Source: a virus
IMG/VR virus record: IMGVR_UViG_3300047369_000529
Span: 1-64,000 of that record
Reading direction: 5' to 3' (one strand)
Length of the DNA: 64,000 nucleotides
Shown: in pieces, positions 38,573 to 58,452 of the stretch
Numbering within the stretch: position 1 is the first letter of the stretch
Layout of the letters: every line of letters starts with the position of its first letter
Translations under genes and position numbers: made by a program
The notes under the pieces: model-generated
The model's input: the letters and a program-made list of their open reading frames with translations, nothing else
What the model was told of the DNA's origin: nothing
Database searches by the model: none

Positions 38573-41200
38573 ATGAGCACTAAAAAAACATTTGAAAGCT
38601 TTGTAAATTCAATGAATGAAAACGTTGATTTATATAAAGTATATAAAAGAGTTTCTGGAAAATACTCTTTAAGAAAACCTTCTTATTGGGGAGATCTATT
38701 TAATCAAAGAGCTTCTATCCCGTTAAAAGAATTAAGTAAATATTCTTCTGAATTAGATTCATTAGAAGTCTATACTACTAAAGAATTAGGATGTCATCCA
38801 GATTATCCTATGCAATCAAATTTTAAGGTTCAAGTTCCTCAAGTATTCGTACTATATTGTAATACTGAAAGGGGCGAATTAGGAGAGTATTATGGAATGT
38901 CAATTCTTGTAAATACTGAAGGTGCAACATATCCAAGATATGCATGTGGTATGCCAGATTTCGAACCAGAACTTCATAACTTTGCAAATGGAATTCCTGA
39001 AAGCTATTTAAATATTGTAACAACAGGTGCTCAAATGTTACATGAAAAAATGATAGCTGAAGGTCAATTCTCATGGATGACACAAGATACTGGAGATCAG
39101 ATTGGTTCAGAACCTCAAAATAAAATAGACGTTTACATGTACGACAACCAGGGTAATTCTTGGAAAGAAAGAGACTATGAAGGCTATGGAGAATTTGGCG
39201 GTATGGATTACTATGACTTAGTTGCAACTATGAACGGATATACTGAAGAAGACGTTAAAACAATGAAAGGTTCATTTAAAGAATTAAGACAACTTGGTAT
39301 CGATTTAGCGTTTGGTAAAATAAAAACTAAAGATAAAAAGCGCAAAACTCTTTTTCCAGCTTTAGTCACAGATCCTAGGTATAATTGGAAAAGACATGAT
39401 TTTACTCAAGAAGCAGAATCAGATCCAAACCAATCATGGTATCAAGAGCCTGAGTATGACGATTATGAAGATGAATATGATGATTTCTACAATGAAAAAG
39501 AAATCAAGGGTAAAGCTGCCGGCAACTCTATAAAGATGGCACCAGCAGGTAGAACTATTGAAATCAATGGTATCACTTACACATGCCTTGGTAAAGGTAA
39601 GTGGGAAGGACCTGATGGCGAAAAAGTAAATTGGATTGAAGTTTCTGCTATGGCATCAGCATTAGGAAACAAGAAAGTTGTATATGAATATGATGGCTAT
39701 GAGTCAGTAGTTACTGAAGCTAAAGGAGATTTAAAAGTAGGAGATAAGGGTATAGATTATAATGATAATGTTGTAAAAATAATTGCTATTGGTAATTTTA
39801 AGAAAATTGCTAAAATGTTTAAGAAAGAAATGAAAGCAGACGCAGCTGATTGGGGCTACGAAGAAGGAGCTGGAGATTTCTATCTTGCTAAAAACATAGA
39901 AGCGACTGAAGGTAATGTTGGAGATTTAGCAATTTATCCAGTAAAATACGACATGGCTAACTACTGGGGTTTAGATAAACTAGATGAATCATCAGTTACT
40001 GAAAACTATGAAGTTATTTATAGCGACGGCGTAAGTGCTATGAAAAAGTTTAGAAGCGAGAAACAAGCACTAGACTTTATGAAGAAAACTATCTCTTCTA
40101 ATAAAAAACTAAGAGATATTGCAGTTTACAAACCAGGAATGTATTCAACTACTCAAACTGAACTAGTTGTTAAATTCTGGGGAGATGGTTCTTATTTAGA
40201 TAACGTTTCTAAAAAAGATAAAGATTTAGCTTCTAAAAAACTAGAAGAATCTACCTTAAATGAAGCTCGTTCTATTAACAAGATTTCAAAGGAGTTTGGA
40301 GAAACGGTTAATAAAATGAAAGATATAGTTAAAGTATATGTTGCTGCTGAAGAAGGAAGTGATGAAAAATCAAAATTAAGACAACAATTAATTGATTTAA
40401 CAGCAAAGAAAAAGTCTTTAACTAAAGAATTAGACGACGCCGTAGCTGGAAAAAACAAAGATGTAAAATTAGTTATAACAGAAGGTGTAATGTCAAATAT
40501 TCATTTGATGGCATCCGATTCTAAAAACTGGGATGATTTCTTAAAAAAGTTTAAGAAAGATTATAAGAAAGTATTTCAAAATACACCTGACTTTATGGAT
40601 TGGTTATATGGCATGTATAAGGATATGGCTCCTTTAAAAGCAGGCGAAAAAGTAGAAGAAAAATATAACAAGAAAAAGTTATTAAAAGCAATTAAGAATA
40701 AAGACGACATGTTTATTCAGTTAGGAGATGGTACTGAACTAATAGTTTATAACCCGGATTCTAATAATGACGACAATGCAGAAATGTGGCACGATGATGT
40801 GGTATTTGCGATCGATCAAGACGGAGAAGAACATGAGGTTAAATACTCAGATATTGCAGGTATTGGTGAATCTGTAGTTTCTGAATCTAAAATTCAAATA
40901 AAAAGAAAGTATACAGACAAGCATCCAGCAAAAACAGCTGGAAGATCTGCAAGGGTTAGAAACGCAATGATAGAAGCTCTTTCGGATGGAATATTAACAG
41001 AAGAAGAATTCAATAATATTTTAAAAGAAAAATCTATTGACAGTAAAAGATGGATGAGAAGAAATTCTAGATTTTTTATGGTAAGTGAAGAAGGAATCAA
41101 GCTTTCTAAATATGGAAAAAGAATTTTTAAAGAAATTACGAATAAGCAAGTAGTTAACTTAACTCTAGAATCTTTTATAAAGGATATATACAATAAATAA
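38573..41200 (+). CDS. Large modular internal virion polyprotein (candidate)
   Basis: The 875-residue product begins STKKTFESFVNSMNE, like a capsid-targeting tag. It holds a series of protease-like linkers: VTE382-A (ESVVTEA), VTE477-N, LNE564-A, ITE637-G and VSE771-S (ESVVSES). These give an N-terminal part of some 365 residues and modules of about 70-135 residues. The module after 382 begins LKVGDKGI, like the SH3-type openings in the proteins at 41213 and 44120. The last module is basic (IQIKRKYTDKHPAKTAGRSA) and could bind nucleic acid. Cleavage and packaging are inferred from the T4 consensus. Confidence 0.6.
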   Translation: MSTKKTFESFVNSMNENVDLYKVYKRVSGKYSLRKPSYWGDLFNQRASIPLKELSKYSSELDSLEVYTTKELGCHPDYPMQSNFKVQVPQVFVLYCNTERGELGEYYGMSILVNTEGATYPRYACGMPDFEPELHNFANGIPESYLNIVTTGAQMLHEKMIAEGQFSWMTQDTGDQIGSEPQNKIDVYMYDNQGNSWKERDYEGYGEFGGMDYYDLVATMNGYTEEDVKTMKGSFKELRQLGIDLAFGKIKTKDKKRKTLFPALVTDPRYNWKRHDFTQEAESDPNQSWYQEPEYDDYEDEYDDFYNEKEIKGKAAGNSIKMAPAGRTIEINGITYTCLGKGKWEGPDGEKVNWIEVSAMASALGNKKVVYEYDGYESVVTEAKGDLKVGDKGIDYNDNVVKIIAIGNFKKIAKMFKKEMKADAADWGYEEGAGDFYLAKNIEATEGNVGDLAIYPVKYDMANYWGLDKLDESSVTENYEVIYSDGVSAMKKFRSEKQALDFMKKTISSNKKLRDIAVYKPGMYSTTQTELVVKFWGDGSYLDNVSKKDKDLASKKLEESTLNEARSINKISKEFGETVNKMKDIVKVYVAAEEGSDEKSKLRQQLIDLTAKKKSLTKELDDAVAGKNKDVKLVITEGVMSNIHLMASDSKNWDDFLKKFKKDYKKVFQNTPDFMDWLYGMYKDMAPLKAGEKVEEKYNKKKLLKAIKNKDDMFIQLGDGTELIVYNPDSNNDDNAEMWHDDVVFAIDQDGEEHEVKYSDIAGIGESVVSESKIQIKRKYTDKHPAKTAGRSARVRNAMIEALSDGILTEEEFNNILKEKSIDSKRWMRRNSRFFMVSEEGIKLSKYGKRIFKEITNKQVVNLTLESFIKDIYNK

Positions 41201-41212
41201 AAACTATAGAAA

Positions 41213-43042
41213 ATGAAACTATATACTAACTTCGATAATTTTATCAATGAAGCAAAGGTTATGAAGCAGAAAGATACTGCTAAAATAGCACAAAAATTAG
41301 CATCGGCTCTTTCAAAGGCAGATGGCAAAGAATTTACAATTTCTAAAGATTCATTAGATGCTGGAGGATGGGATCTAGATATGGATGGAGAAGAATTCGC
41401 AGGTGGAACTTATTTTATTGGAGATGCTGGAGAAATAGTAAACGCAGCAACAAGTAATGACGTATATGGTCACATGGACGACAGTGAAGCTGAATTAGTT
41501 AAAAAGATTAAAAAGGGTAAATTTGCAAAATACAGAGCAACTGAATCAGTAGTTAACGAAGCATCTCTTTCGGGTGTAGAATTTGGAAACGATGACGACA
41601 TTCACCCAACTAAATTTAAACCTTTAACTACATCTTTAAAGAAGAATAAAGTTAAAATGGAAGTTGAAAAAGAAGAAGGTTACCATGGCTACCCAGAAGT
41701 TAAATTAACGGGTAAAAGAAAGGACATCGAAAAGGTTTTAGCTGATGTATGGGGACCAGACTCAATCTCTGACTATGAAGATTATTTTGAATCCAAAGTT
41801 AATGAAGCTAGATTTAAAAAAGGACAATACATTAAAGCCACTGCCGATAGCGATGATTTTGATGGAGATGTTTACGATGTAACTAACGACGTAGATGGTA
41901 GTACGATTTACAAAGATTCATCATTCGAAATTTATGGAATTAATAGAAATGAAGTTATTCTTTGGAGTGACGAGGATGAAGTAGAATACTCAATAGATCC
42001 GGATGATCTTAAACATTTTGTTAAAGAATCATTAGATATTGAACTTAATGAAGCTCTTAAGTCTTCTAAACTAAGAAACTTAATAGACATAAGACAGGGT
42101 GGTAAGCAACTAATGCAGGGTATATATGGTCTTGCTAAAGTAGCATTAGATAAAGTAACCGACGACATGGTTATCACTAATTCAAATCCAGTTGAAGTTT
42201 ATAAGAAAGCAAAAACATACGGAAATGTATTAGTATTTTGGATTTCTAGAAACGAAAAGGAAAATCCTTACACACCTAGAAATAGTTATGGTGGAAAAGA
42301 TATTATTCCAGGAAATACCTTATTAGCAGTCTCAAATGGTAAAAACGAAATGTTTGACAATCATGCTGCATATACTAGAGAGTATGTGGATGGAAAACAA
42401 AGAAGTAAAACTACAAGATCTTTAAAGAATAGAGGAAGATACCCTGGTTCTAAAGACACTGTTGGGGTAGATAAATCTCATAGTACATGGAGTGGAACAG
42501 GCTTAGGAAATATTAAAAGAATCGCAGAGGTTTCAGACGAATGTTACATTATTAATTTAGACGCTGTTAGAGATAGACTTTCTACAAGTAATAAAGTATC
42601 GCAAAGATTTTCTCAAAAAGCCGATGCTACCGCTTTTGATAATCCAAAAGATATTAAACAAGCAAACATCACTAAATATCAATCAATTTTAGCACAAAGA
42701 GCAGATAATCCAGATAAAATAGACAAACAAGTTAAAGAAATTATTGAAGATGCTCATCAATTCTTAATGGCCGGTTTAGCTAAAAAAGAAATGGGAGACT
42801 ATAATGAATTATCAATAGGAAAAGATCCTAAAGGAAGAGATATTAAACCTAGAGATTTAACCAATTATATTTCAAATATATTGTCAGATTATCAAGGATA
42901 TGTTTCGGCATACGTTAATGCAAAAACTGAAGAAGAAAAATATGGAACTTCAAGCGATTGGTATAAAAGAGATGCTAAACGTAAAGCTCTAGAGCTTAAG
43001 CAGCGAATGGCTAAATGGGATAACAAGAACATAGTTTGGTAA
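41213..43042 (+). CDS. Modular internal virion polyprotein (candidate)
   Basis: The 609-residue product begins LYTNFDNFINE13-A, the clearest match here to the T4 capsid-targeting sequence with its cleavage point. Further sites are VNE116-A (ESVVNEA), VNE198-A and LNE280-A. Module 117-198 is homologous to a module in the protein at 32364. Module 199-280 begins FKKGQYIKA, an SH3-like opening. The remaining C-terminal domain of some 330 residues (from ALKSSKLRNLIDI) has no recognised motif, and its large size suggests an effector or enzyme. The gene starts 12 nt after the previous one. Confidence 0.62.
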   Translation: MKLYTNFDNFINEAKVMKQKDTAKIAQKLASALSKADGKEFTISKDSLDAGGWDLDMDGEEFAGGTYFIGDAGEIVNAATSNDVYGHMDDSEAELVKKIKKGKFAKYRATESVVNEASLSGVEFGNDDDIHPTKFKPLTTSLKKNKVKMEVEKEEGYHGYPEVKLTGKRKDIEKVLADVWGPDSISDYEDYFESKVNEARFKKGQYIKATADSDDFDGDVYDVTNDVDGSTIYKDSSFEIYGINRNEVILWSDEDEVEYSIDPDDLKHFVKESLDIELNEALKSSKLRNLIDIRQGGKQLMQGIYGLAKVALDKVTDDMVITNSNPVEVYKKAKTYGNVLVFWISRNEKENPYTPRNSYGGKDIIPGNTLLAVSNGKNEMFDNHAAYTREYVDGKQRSKTTRSLKNRGRYPGSKDTVGVDKSHSTWSGTGLGNIKRIAEVSDECYIINLDAVRDRLSTSNKVSQRFSQKADATAFDNPKDIKQANITKYQSILAQRADNPDKIDKQVKEIIEDAHQFLMAGLAKKEMGDYNELSIGKDPKGRDIKPRDLTNYISNILSDYQGYVSAYVNAKTEEEKYGTSSDWYKRDAKRKALELKQRMAKWDNKNIVW

Positions 43043-43059
43043 AATAAGACTTAAAAATT

Positions 43060-43782
43060 ATGAATAATAAAATAGAAGAAAAATTTAAGTGGGAAACTAC
43101 TGGCGACAAGGATGATAGAGAGTTCTTAACAGGTTTAGTTCAAAGAACTAAATTAATTTACGGAGATATTAAACCTGCTAAATACGATCTTAACGACTTT
43201 GATAAAGACTTAGATAAATTATTAAAGAAATTTGTAAAAGATTCTGATTCTTTTTTTAAGGCAAAGGACGATAGAGACTATGGAGCTAGTAATAAAATAC
43301 ATGCAGATTGGATGAAAGCTGCTCAAAAAGCATTTAAACATGTTACTACAAATACTGCATGGAGAGGTCAATTAAATACATTCACTAGAAATTTATCAAC
43401 TATTTGGCAAGTTCACATGGAAGCAGAGGCTGGAAGAACAGGAAACAGAGGCTATAAAGTTCATAAGAGACAAGCCTTTCAAAAACAGTTTGAACAAGTA
43501 AAATTGTATGAACAGTTTATTAACGAAAGATTTAACGCTAGAAAAGTAAAGAAAGAACTAGAAGGTTTTGGCTTTAAGAACGTTGATGCTAGTGGAAACG
43601 AAATTTCAGTTGAAACGGGCTCTTATGAAAATCCATTTGGTTCAGAACAGAGTTACACTTTCTTTTGGAATGGTGAAACAGTCTGGTGTGAATCAGAAGA
43701 AGCTGAAACAGAATGGATGGGAGAAGTAACTACTGCAGAACAATTTGCAGAAACTATGGAAACAGCAGAAGGCTGGTCATAA
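43060..43782 (+). CDS. Internal-protein-like gene with mid-protein targeting/cleavage motif
   Basis: The 240-residue product has a helical N-terminal half (DLNDFDKDLDKLLKKFVKDS) and then QVKLYEQFINE156-R in the middle. This motif is identical over 11 residues to the N-terminus of the next gene product. The part after it (GFGFKNVDASGNEISVETGS and on) is a small acidic beta-domain. The internal tag suggests fusion of a helical protein with a complete tag-plus-cargo unit. Function unknown; a virion location is inferred. Confidence 0.6.
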   Translation: MNNKIEEKFKWETTGDKDDREFLTGLVQRTKLIYGDIKPAKYDLNDFDKDLDKLLKKFVKDSDSFFKAKDDRDYGASNKIHADWMKAAQKAFKHVTTNTAWRGQLNTFTRNLSTIWQVHMEAEAGRTGNRGYKVHKRQAFQKQFEQVKLYEQFINERFNARKVKKELEGFGFKNVDASGNEISVETGSYENPFGSEQSYTFFWNGETVWCESEEAETEWMGEVTTAEQFAETMETAEGWS

Positions 43783-43798
43783 TTAAAAAACAAGAACT

Positions 43799-44116
43799 AT
43801 GAAACAAGTAAAACTATATGAGCAATTTATAAATGAATCAGCAATTGATACTTTAGCTACTGAAATTGATGATGCTAAAGTTTATGATGCTGTTTCGGAT
43901 GGAGGTTCTGTTGACGCAAGATCTACTAAAAAAACATGGGACGATGGTGTTCCAGTTTTAAAGTATATTGCTAGAGCTCCAAAAAAATCTGTTAAATTAC
44001 CTAAGAAATTTAAAGTAGTAGACGACACTAAATATGGATGGTGGTATTTACAAGTATCAGGAGTATGGTATGGAATCGAACAAGATGATTATGGAACTCC
44101 ACCATTTGAATATTAA
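43799..44116 (+). CDS. Small internal-protein-like gene
   Basis: The 105-residue product starts with MKQVKLYEQFINE13-S, a capsid-targeting-like tag followed by a protease-like site. The remaining 92 residues would be the packaged cargo. They hold a basic segment (ARAPKKSVKLPKKFKVV) and an aromatic end (WWYLQVSGVWYGIEQ). It looks like the simplest member of the family, with one tag and one domain. Cargo function unknown. Confidence 0.62.
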   Translation: MKQVKLYEQFINESAIDTLATEIDDAKVYDAVSDGGSVDARSTKKTWDDGVPVLKYIARAPKKSVKLPKKFKVVDDTKYGWWYLQVSGVWYGIEQDDYGTPPFEY

Positions 44117-44119
44117 GAT

Positions 44120-46126
44120 ATGGAATTAAACGAAAACGAAAACTTATCACTTGGCGATATGGCCGGAATGGGAGAAGTCTCTTTACCATCTGAAACATCA
44201 GTTGGATCAGGGGATATTCCAGCCGGAAAAGGAGATGCCGAAGAAGAGTATAAGAAGAAGAGAAATAAAAAGAAACAACGCGAAATGAAAAACATTATAT
44301 CATTTGAATCTTTCGGATCACTTGATGAAGGTAAAACAATATCTTCTTCTAAAATATCTATGATGGGTGCAAGAGTTCTTAATAAAATTAGCATCGGTAC
44401 CATATTTGATACAGAAGATGGAAACTATGAAATTACGGATTATGGCCGACAGGCAAATGCATTTAAAGAATTTGAAGCAGAACATAATGGTAAAAAAGTA
44501 AAGGTAAAATTAACTGCAATGTATGGTGTTAAGTTAGAAGTAACTGACGATGTACGCAGCGCTAGATTTAATAAAGAAGTAAAGCTAAATTCTATTATTT
44601 TAGAATCGGTTAATGAAGGTAAGTTTGACGGTATTGCAGATTTAGTAAAATCTTTACATTTCGAAATGGATCCTAAAACCGCAGAAGAAAAGAAAATCGA
44701 ACTAGGTAAAAGACAAGGTGAAGTTTCAAGAAGAAAGCAAATTGAAGGTGGTGAATATTCACTAAGAAGATTTAGAAAAGAGATTAAATACGATGAGACC
44801 GGAGAAGATCTTGGTGTATTTAAACCCGGTAGCTATATGGCTGCTACTTCTATATTAGGCGATGGTCCACATAAGAAAGCCGTTAAGAAAGTAAGATGGA
44901 ATAGAAAGAAATACGATCAATGGATTGAAGATATGGCAGCTAACGATGGTTGGAAGAATGCATTCGATATGGCACAAAATGCTAAACACGAACCAGGTCT
45001 ATTACAATGGGCTAAGAAAGAATTTAGAGGTGAAGACGTAATGCAAAGAATTCAATGGGATATTGAAGGTTACGCAGAATCAGTAGTTACTGAATCTATT
45101 AGTAAATCTACTAAAATACATTGTATCGCAACACCAGCTCCTAAGTCAATGCTTAAGGATGAGTTAGAAGAATTATTCGGAGATGATTATAGAAATATAG
45201 TTACAGAAGTTCAAGACGATGAAGGTTATGAATCAGTGTTAGTATTTAATCTTACTAAAAGAGACATTAAATTAATAGAAGATAATATTGGAGATGTATT
45301 AATCTGGGAATATTCAATTAAACCAGGTAAATTAATTAATGAATCAGTAGTTAACGAAGCTGAAAAGTATATCACTGATAAATTTAAAGTAGGTGATAAA
45401 ATTAAAACTAATTTTGGTGAATGGGAAGTAATTGAAACTGATTATGCACCTAAAAAGAGTTTTATAGCACCTTTTATATTTAAAGGAAAGAATATAGAAA
45501 GAGTAAACATACCTAATCCACCTAAAACTAACAAGAATGCGGTAGGTTACAAAGTAACAGACGGTGCTAAATATCCAACTATTGGTTTCTTATATCAATA
45601 TAAAGATATTACTAAACTTGCAACAGTTGGCGTTGATGAATCAATAGTTACTGAAGCTGAAAGTGTAAAGGTAGGAGAATATATTAAAACTCAATACGGT
45701 TATTTCTATAAAAGAGTCGACGGTAAAGTTGGAGGACAAGAAGCTTTCGTTGAAATAAAGAAAGGAAAAGAAGGAAAGAGAAAAACAAGTATTCATGATA
45801 CAGTTAGCTTTGAAATAGTTGATAAAGATGCTGCATTCGAATCATTGGTTACCGAAAAGAAACACGATAGAGAAGATACTATAAAATTCATAAAGAAATA
45901 CATGAGATTCGTAAAAACCACTGAAGAATTTAATGGTTCTCAGGGTGGTATATGGGTTTCAGGTGAAGATGGAGATGAATATAAAGGAGTAACAATCTAT
46001 GATTACTATACGTCTGGTAAATCATATGAATTAGGTGTAAATATAAAGTGGGAAAAAGAGTTAAATGAAAGAGGATGGTACAGCGAATGGTATGATGCAG
46101 GAACTGTAATGATCTGGGAAATATAA
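44120..46126 (+). CDS. Modular internal virion polyprotein with multiple protease-like linkers (candidate)
   Basis: The product has 668 residues from the first ATG. Residue 56 (ATG at 44285) would give MKNIISFESFGSLDE-G, a targeting-like tag ending at a protease-like site (Glu70), so the true start may be internal. Further sites are VNE166-G, VTE325-S, VNE413-A, VTE512-A and VTE579-K, mostly in E-S-V/I-V-T/N-E form. Two modules, after 413 and after 512, open with FKVGDKIKTNFG and VKVGEYIKTQYG, related SH3-like folds. The block ends at a strong terminator (46156). It is the most finely divided member of the set. Confidence 0.62.
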   Translation: MELNENENLSLGDMAGMGEVSLPSETSVGSGDIPAGKGDAEEEYKKKRNKKKQREMKNIISFESFGSLDEGKTISSSKISMMGARVLNKISIGTIFDTEDGNYEITDYGRQANAFKEFEAEHNGKKVKVKLTAMYGVKLEVTDDVRSARFNKEVKLNSIILESVNEGKFDGIADLVKSLHFEMDPKTAEEKKIELGKRQGEVSRRKQIEGGEYSLRRFRKEIKYDETGEDLGVFKPGSYMAATSILGDGPHKKAVKKVRWNRKKYDQWIEDMAANDGWKNAFDMAQNAKHEPGLLQWAKKEFRGEDVMQRIQWDIEGYAESVVTESISKSTKIHCIATPAPKSMLKDELEELFGDDYRNIVTEVQDDEGYESVLVFNLTKRDIKLIEDNIGDVLIWEYSIKPGKLINESVVNEAEKYITDKFKVGDKIKTNFGEWEVIETDYAPKKSFIAPFIFKGKNIERVNIPNPPKTNKNAVGYKVTDGAKYPTIGFLYQYKDITKLATVGVDESIVTEAESVKVGEYIKTQYGYFYKRVDGKVGGQEAFVEIKKGKEGKRKTSIHDTVSFEIVDKDAAFESLVTEKKHDREDTIKFIKKYMRFVKTTEEFNGSQGGIWVSGEDGDEYKGVTIYDYYTSGKSYELGVNIKWEKELNERGWYSEWYDAGTVMIWEI

Positions 46127-46143
46127 CTCTACTCATTAGTTTT

Positions 46144-46172
46144 AAACAATTTTAGAATGCTTTGTATAACTA
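46144..46172 (+). promoter_or_regulatory. Candidate phage promoter upstream of mgsA (variant motif)
   Basis: AAACAA (46144) is followed after 14 nt by GTATAACTA, matching the motif AAACAA-N14-GTA(T/G)(A/T)A(T/C)(A/T)A seen at five other sites. It lies 24 nt before the mgsA start and overlaps the terminator at 46156-46185. This is the least certain of the six sites because two positions differ and the hairpin shares its bases. Confidence 0.4.
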
Positions 46173-46185
46173 CAAAGCATTTTTT
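46156..46185 (+). terminator. Rho-independent terminator after the internal-protein block
   Basis: An 11-bp perfect stem, AATGCTTTGTA/TACAAAGCATT, closes a TAAC loop and is followed directly by a T-run. It should end transcription of the virion-protein block before mgsA. On the opposite strand the preceding bases are less U-rich, so a one-way terminator is most likely. Confidence 0.85.
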
Positions 46186-46196
46186 ATTTATATAGT

Positions 46197-46589
46197 ATGG
46201 ACAAGATGAGATTCGCATTAATTGCGCATGATAACAAAAAAGCAGACATGGTAGCTTTTGTTTCTAAAAGACTTGATTTTTTTAATAATGAAGCTGTTGA
46301 TATTATTACCACAGGAACTACGGGTAAGAAGGTAAAGCACGCCGGAATCAATAGAGTTACCACTGTTCAAAGTGGGCCTTTAGGAGGAGATGCCGAAATA
46401 GCTGCCATGGTGGTGAGAGGTGAGGTTACTGGCGTGATATTCATGAGAGATCCCCTGGATAAACATCCACATGATGTAGATATTTCAATGTTAATGAGGT
46501 TATGTGACGTCCACGATGTCCCCTTGGCTACTAATTATAAAACGGCTAGCATCTTAATTAAATGGTATCGTTCTAAATATAAAATATAA
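46197..46589 (+). CDS. mgsA: Methylglyoxal synthase
   Basis: The 130-residue product is a methylglyoxal synthase, which converts dihydroxyacetone phosphate to methylglyoxal and phosphate. His11-Asp12 (ALIAHDNKK), the phosphate site TTGTTG, Asp65 in SGPLGGD, Asp85 in RDPLDKHPHD, His92 and Asp95 keep the spacing of the E. coli enzyme (Asp71, Asp91, His98, Asp101). E. coli MgsA is 152 residues; the missing part is C-terminal, as in short forms. The phage gene stands between the virion block and sugar-nucleotide genes. It may redirect triose-phosphate flow during infection; this role is inference. Confidence 0.9.
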   Translation: MDKMRFALIAHDNKKADMVAFVSKRLDFFNNEAVDIITTGTTGKKVKHAGINRVTTVQSGPLGGDAEIAAMVVRGEVTGVIFMRDPLDKHPHDVDISMLMRLCDVHDVPLATNYKTASILIKWYRSKYKI

Positions 46590-46616
46590 ACAATTTTTAA
46601 TTTAGCAGTATAATAA
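46588..46616 (+). promoter_or_regulatory. Candidate phage promoter upstream of 46622
   Basis: AAACAA (46588) with GTATAATAA (46608) 14 nt later is a perfect copy of the repeated motif. The ATG at 46622 follows only 5 nt after it, so if this is a promoter the mRNA could be nearly leaderless. The site would serve the sugar-nucleotide operon 46622-48486. Confidence 0.55.
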
Positions 46617-46621
46617 ACAAT

Positions 46622-46867
46622 ATGGATAACATTATCTTCAGGCCCGGAAATTATAAAACATGGTCAATTAAAGCGATAGAGAAAATCGAAGCTGTCATTG
46701 ATTCGTGTGTCACCTTCGATCATCTAGATTCTGCTAAAAAATTAGTTGATCAGTTTTCTATTATTACAGCACTTGAGCAAGATGATGAAAAATCTATTGA
46801 AATAATTATTCACCAATTGTGGCTTAGAATTAAGTTACAAGAAAATAAAATAAATGGATCAAAATAA
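46622..46867 (+). CDS. Small protein of unknown function
   Basis: The 81-residue product starts MDNIIFRPGNYKTW and is mostly helical after that (AIEKIEAVIDSCVTFDHLDS and on to LWLRIKLQENKINGSK). No motif is recognised. Its end overlaps the start of the cytidylyltransferase-like gene by 14 nt, suggesting co-translation. It might regulate or pair with that enzyme, but nothing in the sequence shows it. Confidence 0.6.
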   Translation: MDNIIFRPGNYKTWSIKAIEKIEAVIDSCVTFDHLDSAKKLVDQFSIITALEQDDEKSIEIIIHQLWLRIKLQENKINGSK

Positions 46868-47348
46868 AGGTAAAATAGGATTTACAGCAGGGAACTTCGA
46901 TCTTCTCCATCCTGGGTATATTTACACATTTGAAACAGCAAAAGAACACTGTGATTACTTTATGGTATTTCTACAAAGAGATCCATCTGAAACTAGATAT
47001 ACTAAATATAAACCAGTAATTCCTCTTTATGAAAGATATAAAACTTTAATGGCGATTAAATACGTAGACGAGGTGGTTACGTATCAAACAGAAGAAGACC
47101 TTTTAAACTTAATCGAGTTTTATAAACCAGACGTAAGAATTTTAGGAGACGATTATATTGGTAAAAGATTCACTGGAGATCATATGCCAATCGAGGTTAT
47201 TTATACAACTAGGTCTCATAATTGGTCAACAACCAGAATTAAAGATTTAATAACTAAGCAAACCATCTTACAGAATCCTTCTATTATAGAAGAAAACGTA
47301 AAGTCATTAACAGCTGACGAAGCGGCTAAAATAATTAATAACAAATGA
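46854..47348 (+). CDS. Cytidylyltransferase-like nucleotidyltransferase
   Basis: The 164-residue product has the hallmarks of small nucleotidyltransferases of the HxGH superfamily: GFTAGNFDLLHPGYIY near the N-terminus (HxGH replaced by His-Pro-Gly-Tyr) and NWSTTRIKDL near residue 125, the second nucleotide-binding motif. Related enzymes make CDP-glycerol, CDP-ethanolamine or ADP-heptose. The altered HxGH makes substrate and activity uncertain. It overlaps rmlB-like downstream (ATGA), so both probably act in one sugar/alcohol-phosphate pathway. Confidence 0.7.
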   Translation: MDQNKGKIGFTAGNFDLLHPGYIYTFETAKEHCDYFMVFLQRDPSETRYTKYKPVIPLYERYKTLMAIKYVDEVVTYQTEEDLLNLIEFYKPDVRILGDDYIGKRFTGDHMPIEVIYTTRSHNWSTTRIKDLITKQTILQNPSIIEENVKSLTADEAAKIINNK

Positions 47349-48274
47349 GAATAATAGTAACTGGTGGATTTGGATTTATAGGATCTGAATTTGTAAACAC
47401 GATTAGTAGAAAAAACCCAACAGCAGAAATTGTAGTAGTTGATAAAATGACTTATGCTGCAAACCCAAAGAATGTTAAAACCGGAATAGCTTTAATTAAA
47501 AAAGATATATGTGATGTGACACCCCGTGACTTAGGAGAATATGATTACATGGTACATTTTGCAGCTGAGAGCCACGTAGATAATTCTATAAAAGACGGAA
47601 GACCTTTTGTTAGAACAAACGTAGAGGGAACCTTTAATCTATTAGAATGTGCAAGACAAAATAAAAACCTTAAAAAATTTATTCATATCTCTACGGATGA
47701 AGTTTACGGAGATATGGACGATATTAGTAAGGACGTATTAGCGGATGAAGAATTTCCACTAGTAGCATCTTCTTATTATTCGGCGACAAAGGCATCATCT
47801 GATATGCTAGTCCTTTCAGCAAACAGAACATTTGATCTTCCATATATTATTACGAGAACATGTAATAATTACGGTGCTCATCAACATAAAGAAAAATTTA
47901 TCCCAACCATTATGAGATCCATTAAAGAAGGAAAGAAAATTCCAGTATATGGAGATGGAAAGCAAGTTAGAGAATGGATGGACGTAACAGACAATACGTT
48001 AGTTATTTATAACTTAATGATGTCAGATAGAATTAACGAAGTATTTAATATCGGTTCTGAAGAAAGATACACTAATTTAGAGGTTATTGAAATGATCGGA
48101 AAAATTATGGGTAGAACTCCAGAATATGAATTTGTTCCGGATAGACTTGGGCACGATAGAAGATACGCGCTTAATAGCTCAAAGGTAAATGCTATTTTAG
48201 GAGAAATGATTCCTCTTTCCTTTGAAGAATTTTTAAAAGAAGAAACTATTAAATTATTAGAAACTCAATTATGA
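47345..48274 (+). CDS. rmlB: dTDP-glucose 4,6-dehydratase-like enzyme (extended SDR)
   Basis: The 309-residue product is an NAD-dependent extended short-chain dehydrogenase. The Rossmann motif TGGFGFIGS is at residues 6-14, AAESHVDNSI is typical of RmlB, and the catalytic set is Thr-Asp-Glu (ISTDEVYG) plus Tyr-xxx-Lys (YYSATKAS). RTCNNYGAHQHKEKFIP is the nucleotide-sugar segment of dTDP-glucose dehydratases. The product would be dTDP-4-keto-6-deoxyglucose, a precursor of rare sugars; related dehydratases use UDP- or CDP-sugars, so the nucleotide is not certain. Neighbouring cytidylyltransferase and glucosyltransferase genes suggest a glycan or DNA modification role. Confidence 0.8.
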   Translation: MRIIVTGGFGFIGSEFVNTISRKNPTAEIVVVDKMTYAANPKNVKTGIALIKKDICDVTPRDLGEYDYMVHFAAESHVDNSIKDGRPFVRTNVEGTFNLLECARQNKNLKKFIHISTDEVYGDMDDISKDVLADEEFPLVASSYYSATKASSDMLVLSANRTFDLPYIITRTCNNYGAHQHKEKFIPTIMRSIKEGKKIPVYGDGKQVREWMDVTDNTLVIYNLMMSDRINEVFNIGSEERYTNLEVIEMIGKIMGRTPEYEFVPDRLGHDRRYALNSSKVNAILGEMIPLSFEEFLKEETIKLLETQL

Positions 48275-48486
48275 ATGCAAAATTAATCGAAATGCTAAGA
48301 GCAGACGCTCTAGCACAAAAAGCAAAAGCACTTTTAACTTTAGACCTTTTAGGTAATAAAGGATCGGGTATTGGAGACCACTCTACTAAAGACTTTTATG
48401 AAAATGCAGATGAGGCGTTAACTATGCTAGTCGATGCAGATGATAAATTAGAAGCTTTAGATAAGTATTTTCCACAGGACTTATAA
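48271..48486 (+). CDS. Small acidic protein of unknown function
   Basis: The 71-residue product overlaps the preceding gene (ATGA). It is helical and Ala/Leu/Asp-rich (LRADALAQKAKALLTLDLLG and MLVDADDKLEALDKYFPQDL). No family is recognised. It closes the sugar operon, directly before a terminator. Confidence 0.6.
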   Translation: MNAKLIEMLRADALAQKAKALLTLDLLGNKGSGIGDHSTKDFYENADEALTMLVDADDKLEALDKYFPQDL

Positions 48487-49884: not shown

Positions 49885-50238
49885 ATGAAAGTTCAGGTAA
49901 GAAGAACAGAGTATCGTTACATTGCAGAGGCAACTCCAATTGTAACTTTAGAAACTGAAAAATTTCCAAATTTTAAAGGAACGACTGAAGAAGAGTTTGT
50001 AGAATATCTCGCAGAGAATTATTGGGATTTAGAAGGAATGGATGAACTTGTAGGTTCAGATATTGGAGTAACTGACGAAGAAACGCACGAAGCCCTGGCA
50101 GATTTGGTATATTCAGAAATGGACATATATTCTGACTCTTCTGAAAAAGGATATGAAGGAGAAATACAGATAGGAGAAGAAGATGAATCTTGGAGAAAGC
50201 ATGGAGGATTTAATATAAAACACGGATCACAAATATGA
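49885..50238 (+). CDS. Acidic protein of unknown function
   Basis: The 117-residue product is very acidic, with KFPNFKGTTEEEFVEYLAEN and SYGEIQ-type strands later. It begins with a beta strand (MKVQVRRTEYRYIAEATPIV). No family is recognised. Its last bases overlap the start of the alpha-glucosyltransferase gene (ATGA), so expression is probably coupled. Confidence 0.6.
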   Translation: MKVQVRRTEYRYIAEATPIVTLETEKFPNFKGTTEEEFVEYLAENYWDLEGMDELVGSDIGVTDEETHEALADLVYSEMDIYSDSSEKGYEGEIQIGEEDESWRKHGGFNIKHGSQI

Positions 50239-51458
50239 AAATAGCACTAGTATTAGCAAAAGGAGTCGAAGGCTGTGGACTCACAAGACACACAATCGAA
50301 TTTTATAATTGGCTTATTAAAGAAGGTCATGATGCAACCATTTATGCAGCTATCGAAAAAAGATGGCCTCGTCATAAAATGACAGACATCGTAGCAACTG
50401 AATTCAAAAGAAAAGATATCCCTAATATCGCAAAAGAACTTGAAAAAAATGATGTAGTTTATTACACATCATATCCACACAAATCAGTTGGAGATGAGTT
50501 TAACGAAGACTTTATCGAACACTGTATTTATGGTCTTGAAAATCCTATTAAAATAGGAAATTGCCTTGACCACAATACTGCAAATCTTGCAAAGAATTAT
50601 AAATATTGGGAGATTATGAAATCCATGGATGCAATGTTTAATTATTCAGCAAGATCTAATTTTGCAAATAAATTAAGAGAACATGCACCTGACACGCCTC
50701 TCATCGAAATGAATCTTAATCCCTATGACTATGATGCTTGGAATCATGTTGTAGTTCCAGTTGAAGAGCAAGAAAGAAGAACTACTTATTTTGGTAGATT
50801 TGCAGGATTTAAAGATCCTTTTAGAATGTTCGATATTATGGAATTAATGAAAGATCATAATTTTGTAACAGAATGTAGAGGAGTTGAAAGATCAATGGGA
50901 GCTCTTCCTATGTTTCTTCAAGAAGATAGAAAAACTTTAAGACCAGACATCTTTGAAGTAAACGAAAAAAAGAATCCAATTACATATCCACAGGAGACTA
51001 ATAAACTATACATTCACGGACCTTATAATCTAGCTGAAGGAATGGGAGAACTAGGAAAATCAATGTTTGGTGCAGAGTTCTTTAATCTTCCTGAAAGACT
51101 TTACGGTTCTATGATAGAATATGCAATGTGCGAGGTAATCGCAGCAGGAACTATTCCTCTTTTCGATAAACACTGGGGAGAACATGTAATTCACAGAACA
51201 GAAGGAGTTCCGTTTATTCAATTAGAAGATTTTGCAATCTTTGTAGATAGAGATAACATCGAAGCCTCTATTCCGTTGATGTTAGAATTAGCAAACGATC
51301 ATGAAAGAAGAGATAAGTTCAGAAAAAACTCACTAAGATTGGCTAAATTACATAACGCCCCAGAAGTTGTTAACACTGATCTCTTCGAAGCTATTAACAA
51401 TGTTAATAAAAGATCTGTAGAAAAACCAGTAGAATTAAAAACAAATTCATTGTTTTAA
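50235..51458 (+). CDS. agt: DNA alpha-glucosyltransferase-like enzyme (T4 AGT homologue)
   Basis: The 407-residue product resembles T4 AGT (400 residues), which moves glucose from UDP-glucose to hydroxymethylcytosine in DNA. The start MKIALVLAKGVEGCGLTRHT parallels AGT MRICIFMARGLEGCGVTKFS; TTYFGRFAGFKDPFRMFDI matches the AGT segment around GRTTTWKGFYQMFDF, and AMCEVIAAGTIPLFDKHWGE matches its donor-site segment. The C-terminus TNSLF resembles clamp-binding tails; T4 AGT is known to interact with the gp45 clamp. No hydroxymethylase is in the window, so the acceptor base and sugar are unknown. Confidence 0.75.
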   Translation: MKIALVLAKGVEGCGLTRHTIEFYNWLIKEGHDATIYAAIEKRWPRHKMTDIVATEFKRKDIPNIAKELEKNDVVYYTSYPHKSVGDEFNEDFIEHCIYGLENPIKIGNCLDHNTANLAKNYKYWEIMKSMDAMFNYSARSNFANKLREHAPDTPLIEMNLNPYDYDAWNHVVVPVEEQERRTTYFGRFAGFKDPFRMFDIMELMKDHNFVTECRGVERSMGALPMFLQEDRKTLRPDIFEVNEKKNPITYPQETNKLYIHGPYNLAEGMGELGKSMFGAEFFNLPERLYGSMIEYAMCEVIAAGTIPLFDKHWGEHVIHRTEGVPFIQLEDFAIFVDRDNIEASIPLMLELANDHERRDKFRKNSLRLAKLHNAPEVVNTDLFEAINNVNKRSVEKPVELKTNSLF

Positions 51459-51482: not shown

Positions 51483-51950
51483 ATGGCAAACATAGACAAC
51501 GAATGCAAAGACTTAGAAGTTAAAGACTTCTATGCAGAATCTACCACCCACCTGGCAGATATTATGGAAAACCAAAAGAAAATGCAAGAGCAGACTTACG
51601 GTTTTAATTTTGAAAACATGACACTTAGGGAAGTTATGAATTTTTGGCACTGTAACACGCATGCAGTTATTGATGAAATTCATGAAATGACAGATGCCTT
51701 AGGAGGTATTAAAGACGGCAGCGGAAATGCTATCTGGAAATATTGGAAAAAAGATTTTACAAAATTTGATAATCTTAAAGTTTCAGATCTTTCTGAAAAT
51801 GATAAGAAAGAACTATATATGGAATGGGTAGATATTCTACACTTCTTTATTAATTATGCGGCATCAATTGGCCTCGATGCTAAAACAGCATACAACTATT
51901 ATTTCGCAAAAGCAGAAGAAAATGTTCAACGTCAAAAAAGAGGCTATTAA
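51483..51950 (+). CDS. All-alpha dUTP/dCTP pyrophosphatase-like protein
   Basis: The 155-residue product is an all-alpha NTP pyrophosphatase. It has the metal-site helices VIDEIHEMTDALGG and MEWVDILHFFINYAASIGL, followed by AYNYYFAKAEENVQRQKRGY, the layout of dimeric dUTPases. T4 gp56 (dCTPase-dUTPase) belongs to the same superfamily and excludes normal cytosine from phage DNA. Beside agt, a dCTP/dUTP-hydrolysing role is attractive. The preferred nucleotide cannot be read from sequence. Its stop overlaps the polymerase start by 1 nt. Confidence 0.7.
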   Translation: MANIDNECKDLEVKDFYAESTTHLADIMENQKKMQEQTYGFNFENMTLREVMNFWHCNTHAVIDEIHEMTDALGGIKDGSGNAIWKYWKKDFTKFDNLKVSDLSENDKKELYMEWVDILHFFINYAASIGLDAKTAYNYYFAKAEENVQRQKRGY

Positions 51951-53347
51951 TGATATTAGACATTGAACAAAGAGACAAGGATGTAATTATATCATATTAC
52001 GACACCGAGGGTAAAGTAGCTTTTAAACAATATCCAGTTCAGCAATATCAAAATTGGTATGTATGTGACGGTAAAGATAGAGGTAGAAGTTTAGACCATA
52101 AAAACTGGGACGGAAGATCAGTGAAGCTTGGTAACGCAAGAAGATACAATAAATTTTCTTTAACTTATTTCCTAGACTCTTTACCTGAAAAAGATAAAGA
52201 AGAAATTTTTGCATATAATATGCCTAAAACATATTTTGTCGATATTGAGACAGAAATTGTTGATGGTTTTCCAAAAGCAGAAGAAGCAAAAAGTAGAATT
52301 CTATCTTTTTCTATTATCACACCTGATCATAAAGCAATTGTTCTTGGATTAGAAGATATGTCTTCTTCTAATATTCAAAAGATTGAAGAAGATACTAATA
52401 ACTATTTTAAGAACTTTGATCAAGATTGGGAATTTAGGTATCATAAGTTTGAAACTGAATATGATATGGTCTACACCTTCTTAATGAAATTTCTACCTAA
52501 GTTTCCAATGATGACAGGCTGGAACTTTATTAACTATGACTGGCAATATATTGTAAACAGATGTAAAAGACTTCAAATAGATGTTGCAGAAGTTTCTATG
52601 ACTCAATCTTTAGATAGAAATGATAGTAGGCCTTTACATATTGGAATCTTAGATTACATGCAACTTTATGATAAGTATGATAGATCTGTAAAGGTAAAGG
52701 AATCTAATGCACTTGATTATGTAGCAGGACAAGTTCTAAATGTAAATAAGATTAAGTTTACAGGTTCACTCCAAGACCTTTACAGAGATGATTTTACTAA
52801 ATACATTTATTATAATGTAGTTGACTCGGTTCTTGTATATTATATCGATCAACAATTAAAGTCAATGGAAGTTCTATTAACTCTTGCAAACATTACAAAA
52901 ATGCCTCTCTATAAAGCTGCATCTCCGGTTGCTGTAACAGAATCATTGATTGCAAGAAAACTTTCAGAAGAAGGTAAAAGAATTGGCTCAGAATCTAAAG
53001 AAGATGGAGAAAAGAATGGACAATACGCTGGGGCTTTTGTAAAAGAACCCATCACAGGGTATTATGAAGGTGTAAGTGCATTTGACTTTGCTTCTCTATA
53101 TCCTTCTATTATGAGACAATTTAATATTTCACCAGATTCCTTTATAGAAAAAATAGATTCTAGTGAGATAAAAGAAAGAAGAAATGACAAAGAAGTTATT
53201 GTATGTGAGAACGGAGTTGTATACAAGCAAGAAACTTCAATGTTAAAAAAAATATTAGCAGATCTATATGATCAGCGTAAAGCATATAAGAATACCTCTT
53301 ATGAGTATTTTACAAAAGCTGATAAACTTAGAAAAAGATTAAGTTAA
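51950..53347 (+). CDS. 43: DNA polymerase family B, N-terminal fragment (exonuclease and motif A)
   Basis: The 465-residue product carries the N-terminal and 3'-5' exonuclease domains of a T4 gp43-type polymerase: Asp98/Glu100 in YFVDIETE (Exo I), GWNFINYDWQYI (Exo II) and YYNVVDSVLVYY (Exo III). Palm motif A follows with Asp379 in FDFASLYPSIMRQF. It stops after RKAYKNTSYEYFTKADKLRK, in the first fingers helix. Motifs B and C are missing and are encoded at 57256. It ends with a true stop, not a frameshift, and the downstream fragment is 3.9 kb away. The two products must presumably associate to polymerise DNA. Confidence 0.92.
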   Translation: MILDIEQRDKDVIISYYDTEGKVAFKQYPVQQYQNWYVCDGKDRGRSLDHKNWDGRSVKLGNARRYNKFSLTYFLDSLPEKDKEEIFAYNMPKTYFVDIETEIVDGFPKAEEAKSRILSFSIITPDHKAIVLGLEDMSSSNIQKIEEDTNNYFKNFDQDWEFRYHKFETEYDMVYTFLMKFLPKFPMMTGWNFINYDWQYIVNRCKRLQIDVAEVSMTQSLDRNDSRPLHIGILDYMQLYDKYDRSVKVKESNALDYVAGQVLNVNKIKFTGSLQDLYRDDFTKYIYYNVVDSVLVYYIDQQLKSMEVLLTLANITKMPLYKAASPVAVTESLIARKLSEEGKRIGSESKEDGEKNGQYAGAFVKEPITGYYEGVSAFDFASLYPSIMRQFNISPDSFIEKIDSSEIKERRNDKEVIVCENGVVYKQETSMLKKILADLYDQRKAYKNTSYEYFTKADKLRKRLS

Positions 53348-57255: not shown

Positions 57256-58452
57256 ATGGATATAAACACACTGATTAACAAGCCCGAAGATGACCTTACT
57301 AGGGATGAAATGCAAATCTTGGCGGACCATTATCAAACAATGTCCGCCAAGTATACTGCATACGAGCAAGCTGTAAAAGTAACGCTTAACTCTATCTATG
57401 GCGCATTTGGTAATAAGTGGTTCCACTTCTTCAATATTGATATTGCTGAATCAATTACACTTCAAGGTCAAAATGCAATCTTATATTCTGAAAAGATTTT
57501 AAATAAGTATTTTCAAGAGTTTTGGCCGAAAGATAGTAAGGTTCATGAACACTTTAGCATTTCTATTAAAAATAAACTTGTAAGACCTTCTGTAGTTTAT
57601 ATCGATACAGATTCATGTTACGTGCAGTTTGAAGAAATGTACGAATCTATTGAATGGTACGGTGAACAGATGCCTATTGATAAATTCATCATGGAACTAT
57701 ATAATTTTAGACTTAAAGATTATATTACAGGTGCCATGAAAAAATACGCAGAAGCCACGAACACAGATAACTTCTTGTTTTTCGAATTAGAAACTATAGC
57801 GTATTCTGGAATTTGGTTAGCTAAGAAAAAGTATTTACAGGATATTGCATGGGAAGATAAATTAGAAATAGATGACAGATACCCTTCTCTTAAGAAAATT
57901 AAGACAATCGGATTTGATACTATTCAGTCTTCCACTCCTACACTTGCGAGAAAGCATTTAACCGAAGCTCTCAAATTAATTCTTTCTGAGAAACCAACCG
58001 CTGACATGTTAAGTAGATTAGTTTCTTTTTTGAAAACTGCAAAGAAAGAGTTTAAAATGGCTAACGTTGACGAAATATCTTTTAATAAAAGAACAAATAA
58101 CATTGAAAAATATATCGTAGACGACACCATAGAATTTCAATATGGATTAAAATGTCCTCCAAATGTTAAAGCAGCAGGATTTTATAATTTCTTAATGAAT
58201 CAGAATCCTAAGTATAAGAACAAGTATAAAATGATAGGTAATGGTGAAAAACTAAAACTATATCATTGTAACCATAATGTATGTGAAATGTATGCATATC
58301 AGCCGGGTGCTCATCCGTATGAGATTGCTCCACAAGTAGATTATGAAACTCAATTTGAAAAATCTGTAATAGATCCGATTAATAGAGTTTTAACTTCAGT
58401 GGGTCTTCAAAGACTAAATAGAAACTTAATTTACTCTACGTCATTATTCTAA
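57256..58452 (+). CDS. 43: DNA polymerase family B, C-terminal fragment (motifs B and C, thumb)
   Basis: The 398-residue product starts just before the second fingers helix and carries motif B, KVTLNSIYG (41-49), and motif C, YIDTDSCY (Asp117/Asp119). LAKKKYLQD suits the KKRY motif, followed by the thumb. It ends NRNLIYSTSLF, a clamp-binding type tail as in T4 gp43. About 30 N-terminal residues (DINTLINKPEDDLTRDEMQI) would connect to the N-terminal fragment at 51950-53347. Together they make some 860 residues, near T4 gp43 (898), so almost nothing is lost at the break. No intein motifs are present at either end. Confidence 0.92.
   Translation: MDINTLINKPEDDLTRDEMQILADHYQTMSAKYTAYEQAVKVTLNSIYGAFGNKWFHFFNIDIAESITLQGQNAILYSEKILNKYFQEFWPKDSKVHEHFSISIKNKLVRPSVVYIDTDSCYVQFEEMYESIEWYGEQMPIDKFIMELYNFRLKDYITGAMKKYAEATNTDNFLFFELETIAYSGIWLAKKKYLQDIAWEDKLEIDDRYPSLKKIKTIGFDTIQSSTPTLARKHLTEALKLILSEKPTADMLSRLVSFLKTAKKEFKMANVDEISFNKRTNNIEKYIVDDTIEFQYGLKCPPNVKAAGFYNFLMNQNPKYKNKYKMIGNGEKLKLYHCNHNVCEMYAYQPGAHPYEIAPQVDYETQFEKSVIDPINRVLTSVGLQRLNRNLIYSTSLF

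Follow-up and report, generated by a model that had tools for sequence, protein, structure and literature searches.

We find that a T4-like virus carries a gene for methylglyoxal synthase (mgsA), and that relatives of this gene are widespread among uncultured aquatic phages. The gene lies in a 64,000-nucleotide stretch (the window, meaning the whole of the DNA analyzed here) that belongs to a 79-kb IMG/VR virus record (79,082 bases). Its 130–amino acid open reading frame (ORF) matches Pfam MGS (5.5e-13; 49.3 bits, cut-off 24.1) and the NCBIfam methylglyoxal synthase equivalog PRK05234 (149 bits, cut-off 84), and scores narrowly below the cut-off of TIGR00160 (140.8 bits, cut-off 146.9). In a PDB sequence search, the best matches were all MgsA, headed by 8u2v (1.3e-33). 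The AlphaFold model of the protein (predicted, pLDDT 88) adopts the MGS fold; Foldseek aligns it with MgsA of B. subtilis (1.2e-13, TM 0.85), of E. coli (1b93, TM 0.84), and of Thermus and Borrelia, with TM about 0.85 throughout, as for the entries 6f2c and 1b93. Pfam, PRK05234, the PDB matches, and the predicted fold thus bear out the sequence-only reading, which had named the ORF a methylglyoxal synthase. By its sequence it appears to be a bona fide MgsA, and we infer that it is catalytically active.

The active site is intact. In E. coli numbering, the window protein has H19, D20, K23, T45, G46, T47, T48, and S65, and it also keeps G66, D71, D91, H98, D101, R107, and V111. The numbering is that of the E. 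coli sequence; the PDB matches agree independently. All catalytic residues had been said to be present with E. coli spacing, and this holds apart from the interval from K23 to T45, which is two residues longer. Across 80 aligned phage copies, the catalytic Asp71, Asp101, and His98 and the phosphate-binding H19, K23, T45 to T48, and G66 are retained, the sole exception being T47 (79 of 80). The R107 and V111 positions, which are linked to the control of MgsA by dihydroxyacetone phosphate (DHAP) activation and phosphate inhibition, are invariant in the aligned phage copies. Phage mgsA is under strong purifying selection, with dN/dS between 0.035 and 0.15 for all informative pairs but one (0.29). 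The intact active site and this selection argue for catalysis.

Bacterial MgsA (EC 4.2.3.3; PRK05234/TIGR00160) and the phage protein have sequence, fold, and catalytic residues in common, and in length the latter falls with the short enzymes of B. subtilis and Thermus. It differs in being phage-encoded, in belonging to a phage-majority lineage, and in missing the C-terminal tail that carries R150 in E. coli, a tail also missing from its aquatic Bacteroidota relatives.

Features of the mgsA region, with positions in the window
Feature	Position	Strand	Evidence or remark
Terminator-like hairpin and promoter-like element	46140..46196	+	hairpin 46154-46183, 13 bp, followed by T residues
-35-like TTTAAA	46141-46146	+	18-nt spacer to the -10-like box
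-10-like TATAAC	46165-46170	+	inside the hairpin loop
mgsA, methylglyoxal synthase (MgsA)	46197..46589	+	130 aa; alternative start M4 at 46206
81-aa protein, no family	46622..46867	+	no Pfam or PHROG match; synteny
Cytidylyltransferase-like nucleotidyltransferase (TagD/HldE-C type)	46854..47348	+	Pfam CTP_transf_like 6.2e-14; PDB 1coz 5e-15
RmlB-like nucleotide-sugar 4,6-dehydratase	47345..48274	+	TIGR01181 318 bits, below cut-off 365
71-aa phage protein	48271..48486	+	phrog_1811
DNA alpha-glucosyltransferase (T4 AGT family)	50235..51458	+	Pfam AGT 5.5e-17; phrog_2888 8e-66; PDB 1xv5 5e-24

At least 361 stretches in IMG/VR encode relatives of mgsA; a stricter query gave 197. The contigs concerned reach 297 kb, and 11 of the 27 examined have a match to T4 Gp23 over the cut-off. 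PHROGs has no family for phage MgsA, and the viral structure library BFVD gave no phage MgsA match at E <= 0.001. Among the 50,697 isolated-phage records of INPHARED there were 22 weak matches, all below 60% identity. We rejected these as isolated-phage mgsA; the three that were inspected stand among bacterial chromosomal genes. Reading names from sequence, we take the neighbors in MT835478 to be MinD- and FtsW-like, and those in OR846810, a “Listeria phage” record, to be dapB-, cca-, and panB/panC-like; the surroundings in MT835682 are likewise bacterial-looking. Because of these chromosomal neighbors, all three records are probably bacterial DNA deposited as phage. The expectation that mgsA is uncommon in phages is therefore right for isolated-phage records and catalogs and wrong for uncultured aquatic phages.

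Viral mgsA has been listed before. In Lake Baikal viromes it occurs on a viral scaffold, under propanoate metabolism, and the scaffold, assigned to a Cr30-like virotype, accounts for as much as 8.8% of the reads of a sample (PMC8066274). In viruses of deep-sea brine pools it is listed under methane metabolism (PMC11252502). The portions of these two reports available to us list the gene without an analysis of its residues, phylogeny, context, or prevalence. On methylglyoxal in phage infection, the literature found, as far as its accessible text goes, comprises papers on honey or biofilms and general bacterial papers. The widespread occurrence of mgsA in phages is thus newly documented here, while the enzyme family and the class of auxiliary metabolic genes were already known.

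The best cellular relatives of the window MgsA are enzymes of aquatic Bacteroidota (60 to 69% identity), with lower identity to those of Flavobacterium (about 52%) and to Parabacteroides-type enzymes (about 46%). Several of the Bacteroidota genes lie in chromosomal contexts, beside what we presume from their sequences to be ridA, bamA, uppS, glyA, and efp/sucD. In a maximum-likelihood tree the phage copies are nested within the aquatic Bacteroidota MgsA clade, where they form one near-coherent, phage-majority lineage. That tree placed three long-branched cellular rows (L082, L088, and L092) among the phage rows, and these are possibly back-transfers. A single phage acquisition is disfavored, at a borderline level only: constraining all phage copies to one clade gave a p-AU of 0.042, with one long row removed and a Flavobacteriales MAG contig (L100) treated as phage because its neighbors look phage-like. 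The tree topologies would fit a single acquisition or a small number of them, perhaps followed by transfer back to cells. As a separate observation, the Flavobacterium chromosomes in our set (L106 to L122) have two MGS genes in tandem. In the second of these, the conserved T48 and S65-G66-P67 positions have apparently been lost, which suggests a noncatalytic or altered paralog.

In PHROGs searches the window encodes a single-stranded DNA–binding protein, a primase, a UvsW-type helicase, nrdA and nrdB, a split family-B DNA polymerase, and a DnaB-like helicase. At the 64- to 79-kb end of the record, we recognize from translations what we take to be a portal, a prohead protease/scaffold, a gp23-like capsid protein, and clamp-loader proteins; Pfam Gp23 is confirmed in three near relatives (G007, G012, and G015). 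With these T4-like hallmark genes on the record or its near relatives, mgsA is a host-derived gene on a genuine phage genome, that is, an auxiliary metabolic gene. By DNA polymerase and helicase, the closest records are huge metagenomic phages (LR756500, 46 to 56%), and Lak phages and Sphingomonas phage PAU are more distant. As its nearest records are only 46 to 56% identical, the virus represents an undescribed T4-like lineage in that phage collection. Its hosts are probably uncultured aquatic bacteria of the Bacteroidota, judging from the mgsA tree.

The genomic contexts of phage mgsA are varied. Among 25 dereplicated representatives we find 25 different pairs of flanking genes (23 families upstream, 22 downstream), and selection therefore appears to act on mgsA as a single gene. 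None of the neighbors is a constant partner: an IMP dehydrogenase-like gene is near mgsA in 5 of the 25 (L037, L049, L055, L062, and L063) and a cytidylyltransferase-like gene in 6. Loss from close relatives, which the sequence-only reading had held would count against it, takes the form of patchiness. When contigs are grouped by relatedness of their DNA polymerases, 15 of the 16 in the window lineage carry mgsA, the exception being a 25-kb fragment, versus only 2 of 34 contigs whose polymerase is 78 to 83% identical. Even contigs of 77 to 236 kb in the latter set are missing the gene, although these have no completeness estimates and may be fragments. Its absence from most of these relatives suggests that mgsA is dispensable in sister lineages.

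A terminator-like hairpin (z = -3.9) stands directly 5′ of mgsA, and the genes 3′ of it are closely spaced or overlapping. In relatives with or without mgsA, the stem is altered in sequence yet still pairs, and the TATAA loop and a TTKAAACA box are kept. This element, with TTTAAA or TTGAAA 18 nt upstream, precedes mgsA in L007 and L248. The same element precedes the 81-aa gene in L242, L244, L245, and L249, all without mgsA; in relatives that lack mgsA, the 81-aa gene is the conserved first gene of the operon. Thus, mgsA looks inserted as, or lost from, the first place of an existing operon. The hairpin, TATAA, and -35 combination occurs once in the window against a mean of 0.07 in simulated sequence (-35 match included), a count that is descriptive because the pattern was defined after being seen; that relatives conserve the element weighs more. 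Overall, terminator-like sites were no more frequent in the region than in shuffled sequence. The element is a possible combined terminator and promoter, probably ending the upstream genes and starting the mgsA operon.

Our preferred reading, held tentatively and at somewhat less than even confidence, is that mgsA is a stand-alone auxiliary metabolic gene from aquatic Bacteroidota whose product converts DHAP to methylglyoxal and phosphate, relieving triose phosphate and returning phosphate. The phage lineage would have taken the gene from these bacteria and kept it, expressing it from the head of an operon that follows the terminator/promoter-like element. MgsA would then turn host DHAP into methylglyoxal and inorganic phosphate during infection. 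This drain would relieve a build-up of triose phosphate, the released phosphate would supply nucleotide and DNA synthesis as phosphate in the infected cell falls, and host glyoxalase or reductase enzymes would dispose of the methylglyoxal. A specific partnership with the neighboring sugar-nucleotide genes would not be involved. For the E. coli enzyme, DHAP is an activator and free phosphate a strong inhibitor (PMC13010800). By analogy, an infected, phosphate-drained cell is where a phosphate-inhibited MgsA would run. We find PhoH in 10 of the 27 mgsA contigs; PhoH is common in such phages anyway, and the genomes give no reason to prefer phosphate supply to other uses of MgsA. Members of PF00903 (glyoxalase), PF01965 (DJ-1/glyoxalase-III-type), and PF00248 (aldo-keto reductase) were absent from all 27 mgsA contigs in a search in which most control genomes score. 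We therefore reject a co-inherited detoxification pathway of these kinds, which would leave methylglyoxal to host enzymes.

The toxicity of methylglyoxal and its reaction with guanine would burden a phage during replication, which counts against the DHAP-drain reading, as does the absence of mgsA from most relatives with a 78 to 83% identical polymerase. Another possibility, which we consider less probable, is that the bypass serves as a carbon and redox overflow to lactate or pyruvate, uncoupling glycolysis from ATP and phosphate, so that phosphate release is incidental. It has the same support as the DHAP drain, from which sequence data cannot separate it, and E. coli is described as having a route that leads from triose to pyruvate by way of methylglyoxal (PMC13010800); the overflow would, however, need a host glyoxalase and D-lactate dehydrogenase. 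Methylglyoxal could also be the weapon itself, glycating host proteins and DNA to shut down the host or to exclude competing phages from superinfection. An intact active site and the lack of detoxification genes of the three tested families in the 27 contigs are in keeping with this use, which we nevertheless regard as unlikely: phage DNA and proteins would be modified too, the closest kin of the enzyme is ordinary Bacteroidota MgsA, and the gene run that mgsA heads in the window goes on to genes of the replication type (pol, nrdAB), not to late structural ones. Slightly more doubtful still is the idea of a distinct viral MgsA lineage that uses methylglyoxal as an infection agent, whether for host glycation, competitor exclusion, or as a DNA-hypermodification reagent. 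The sequence-only reading had named relief of sugar-phosphate stress, a carbon shift, and toxic methylglyoxal as candidate roles. We favor draining triose phosphate with return of phosphate; carbon overflow comes a close second and deliberate methylglyoxal toxicity third.

The sequence-only reading had correctly placed cytidylyltransferase and RmlB-like genes after mgsA, as the Pfam, NCBIfam, and PDB matches agree (PDB matches of the RmlB-like protein are dTDP-glucose 4,6-dehydratases, about 1e-68; the cytidylyltransferase-like protein scores below the cut-offs of TIGR02199 and TIGR01518). It had further seen in them a sign of control of a phage glycan pathway, which we take to mean that mgsA would regulate or feed a glycan or sugar-nucleotide pathway formed with them. 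The tight, operon-like spacing of mgsA and cassette in the window lineage and in L248 speaks for such a link, as does the cytidylyltransferase-like gene near mgsA in a minority of representatives. The two are nonetheless separable. In L243, L249, and L250 the cassette of 81-aa, cytidylyltransferase, and RmlB genes is kept at the same place without mgsA, and mgsA is mostly found without the cassette, both sugar genes lying within 6 kb of it at only 1 of the 25 dereplicated loci. Moreover, an RmlA-type NTP_transferase (PF00483) was not found in any of 14 related records. We therefore reject mgsA as a member of a glycan operon, and consider the proposed link very improbable. Because it adjoins a DNA alpha-glucosyltransferase in the window lineage, the cassette more plausibly serves DNA modification, and it is this glucosyltransferase that the sugar-nucleotide genes more probably supply. 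We give least credence of all to the idea that the MGS-fold protein has lost catalysis or taken on another function, for instance ligand sensing as in the MGS domain of carbamoyl-phosphate synthetase. MGS folds are regulatory elsewhere (carbamoyl-phosphate synthetase is among the structure matches) and the TIGR00160 score is slightly low, but the catalytic residues persist across the phage copies and PRK05234 is well above its cut-off.

In five relatives (L242 and L244 to L247), the sugar and glucosyltransferase cassette is replaced by HMUDK_hel (PF18723) and inositol-1-phosphate synthase (PF01658) genes. The replacement also includes what we take, from sequence reading only, to be an FkbM-like methyltransferase gene and a ~475-aa TROVE-like protein. 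Taken with the glucosyltransferase, these replacements suggest that the locus is a variable one for DNA modification, which either gained mgsA by insertion or lost it. Near relatives have a divergent gene of the thymidylate synthase superfamily, which would be compatible with hydroxymethylcytosine synthesis.

Cyanophages carry auxiliary genes of carbon metabolism, such as talC, zwf, gnd, and CP12. Like these, mgsA is a single host-derived gene that is proposed to redirect central carbon flow in infection; unlike these, it encodes the reaction from DHAP to methylglyoxal and phosphate, and the host phylum is probably different. Phage mgsA thus adds this central-carbon reaction to the host reactions carried by phages. 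Uncultured aquatic phages commonly have the gene, although isolate genomes, PHROGs, and the viral structure library do not. Should the enzyme prove active, it would route phosphate and carbon in phages of aquatic Bacteroidota, a group important in polysaccharide degradation.

Two further features of the window concern other genes. The family-B DNA polymerase is split in two (51950-53347 and 57256-58452); nrdB, nrdA, and an ORF of 251 aa separate the parts. Upstream of mgsA, the proteins of three long ORFs (875, 609, and 668 aa; 38573-46126) start with F-x-x-F-[ILV]-x-E-like leaders (MKLYTNFDNFINEA, MKHIKLFEQFVGEA), which are reminiscent of T4 capsid-targeting sequences and are also found on many small ORFs in relatives (L242). 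The long ORFs contain two to four internal copies of ES-x-V-[NT]-E, and we regard their products as candidates for modular polyproteins of internal proteins that the prohead protease would cleave. The 668-aa gene of L003 is missing almost exactly the stretch between the ES-x-V-[NT]-E copies at aa 320 and 507.
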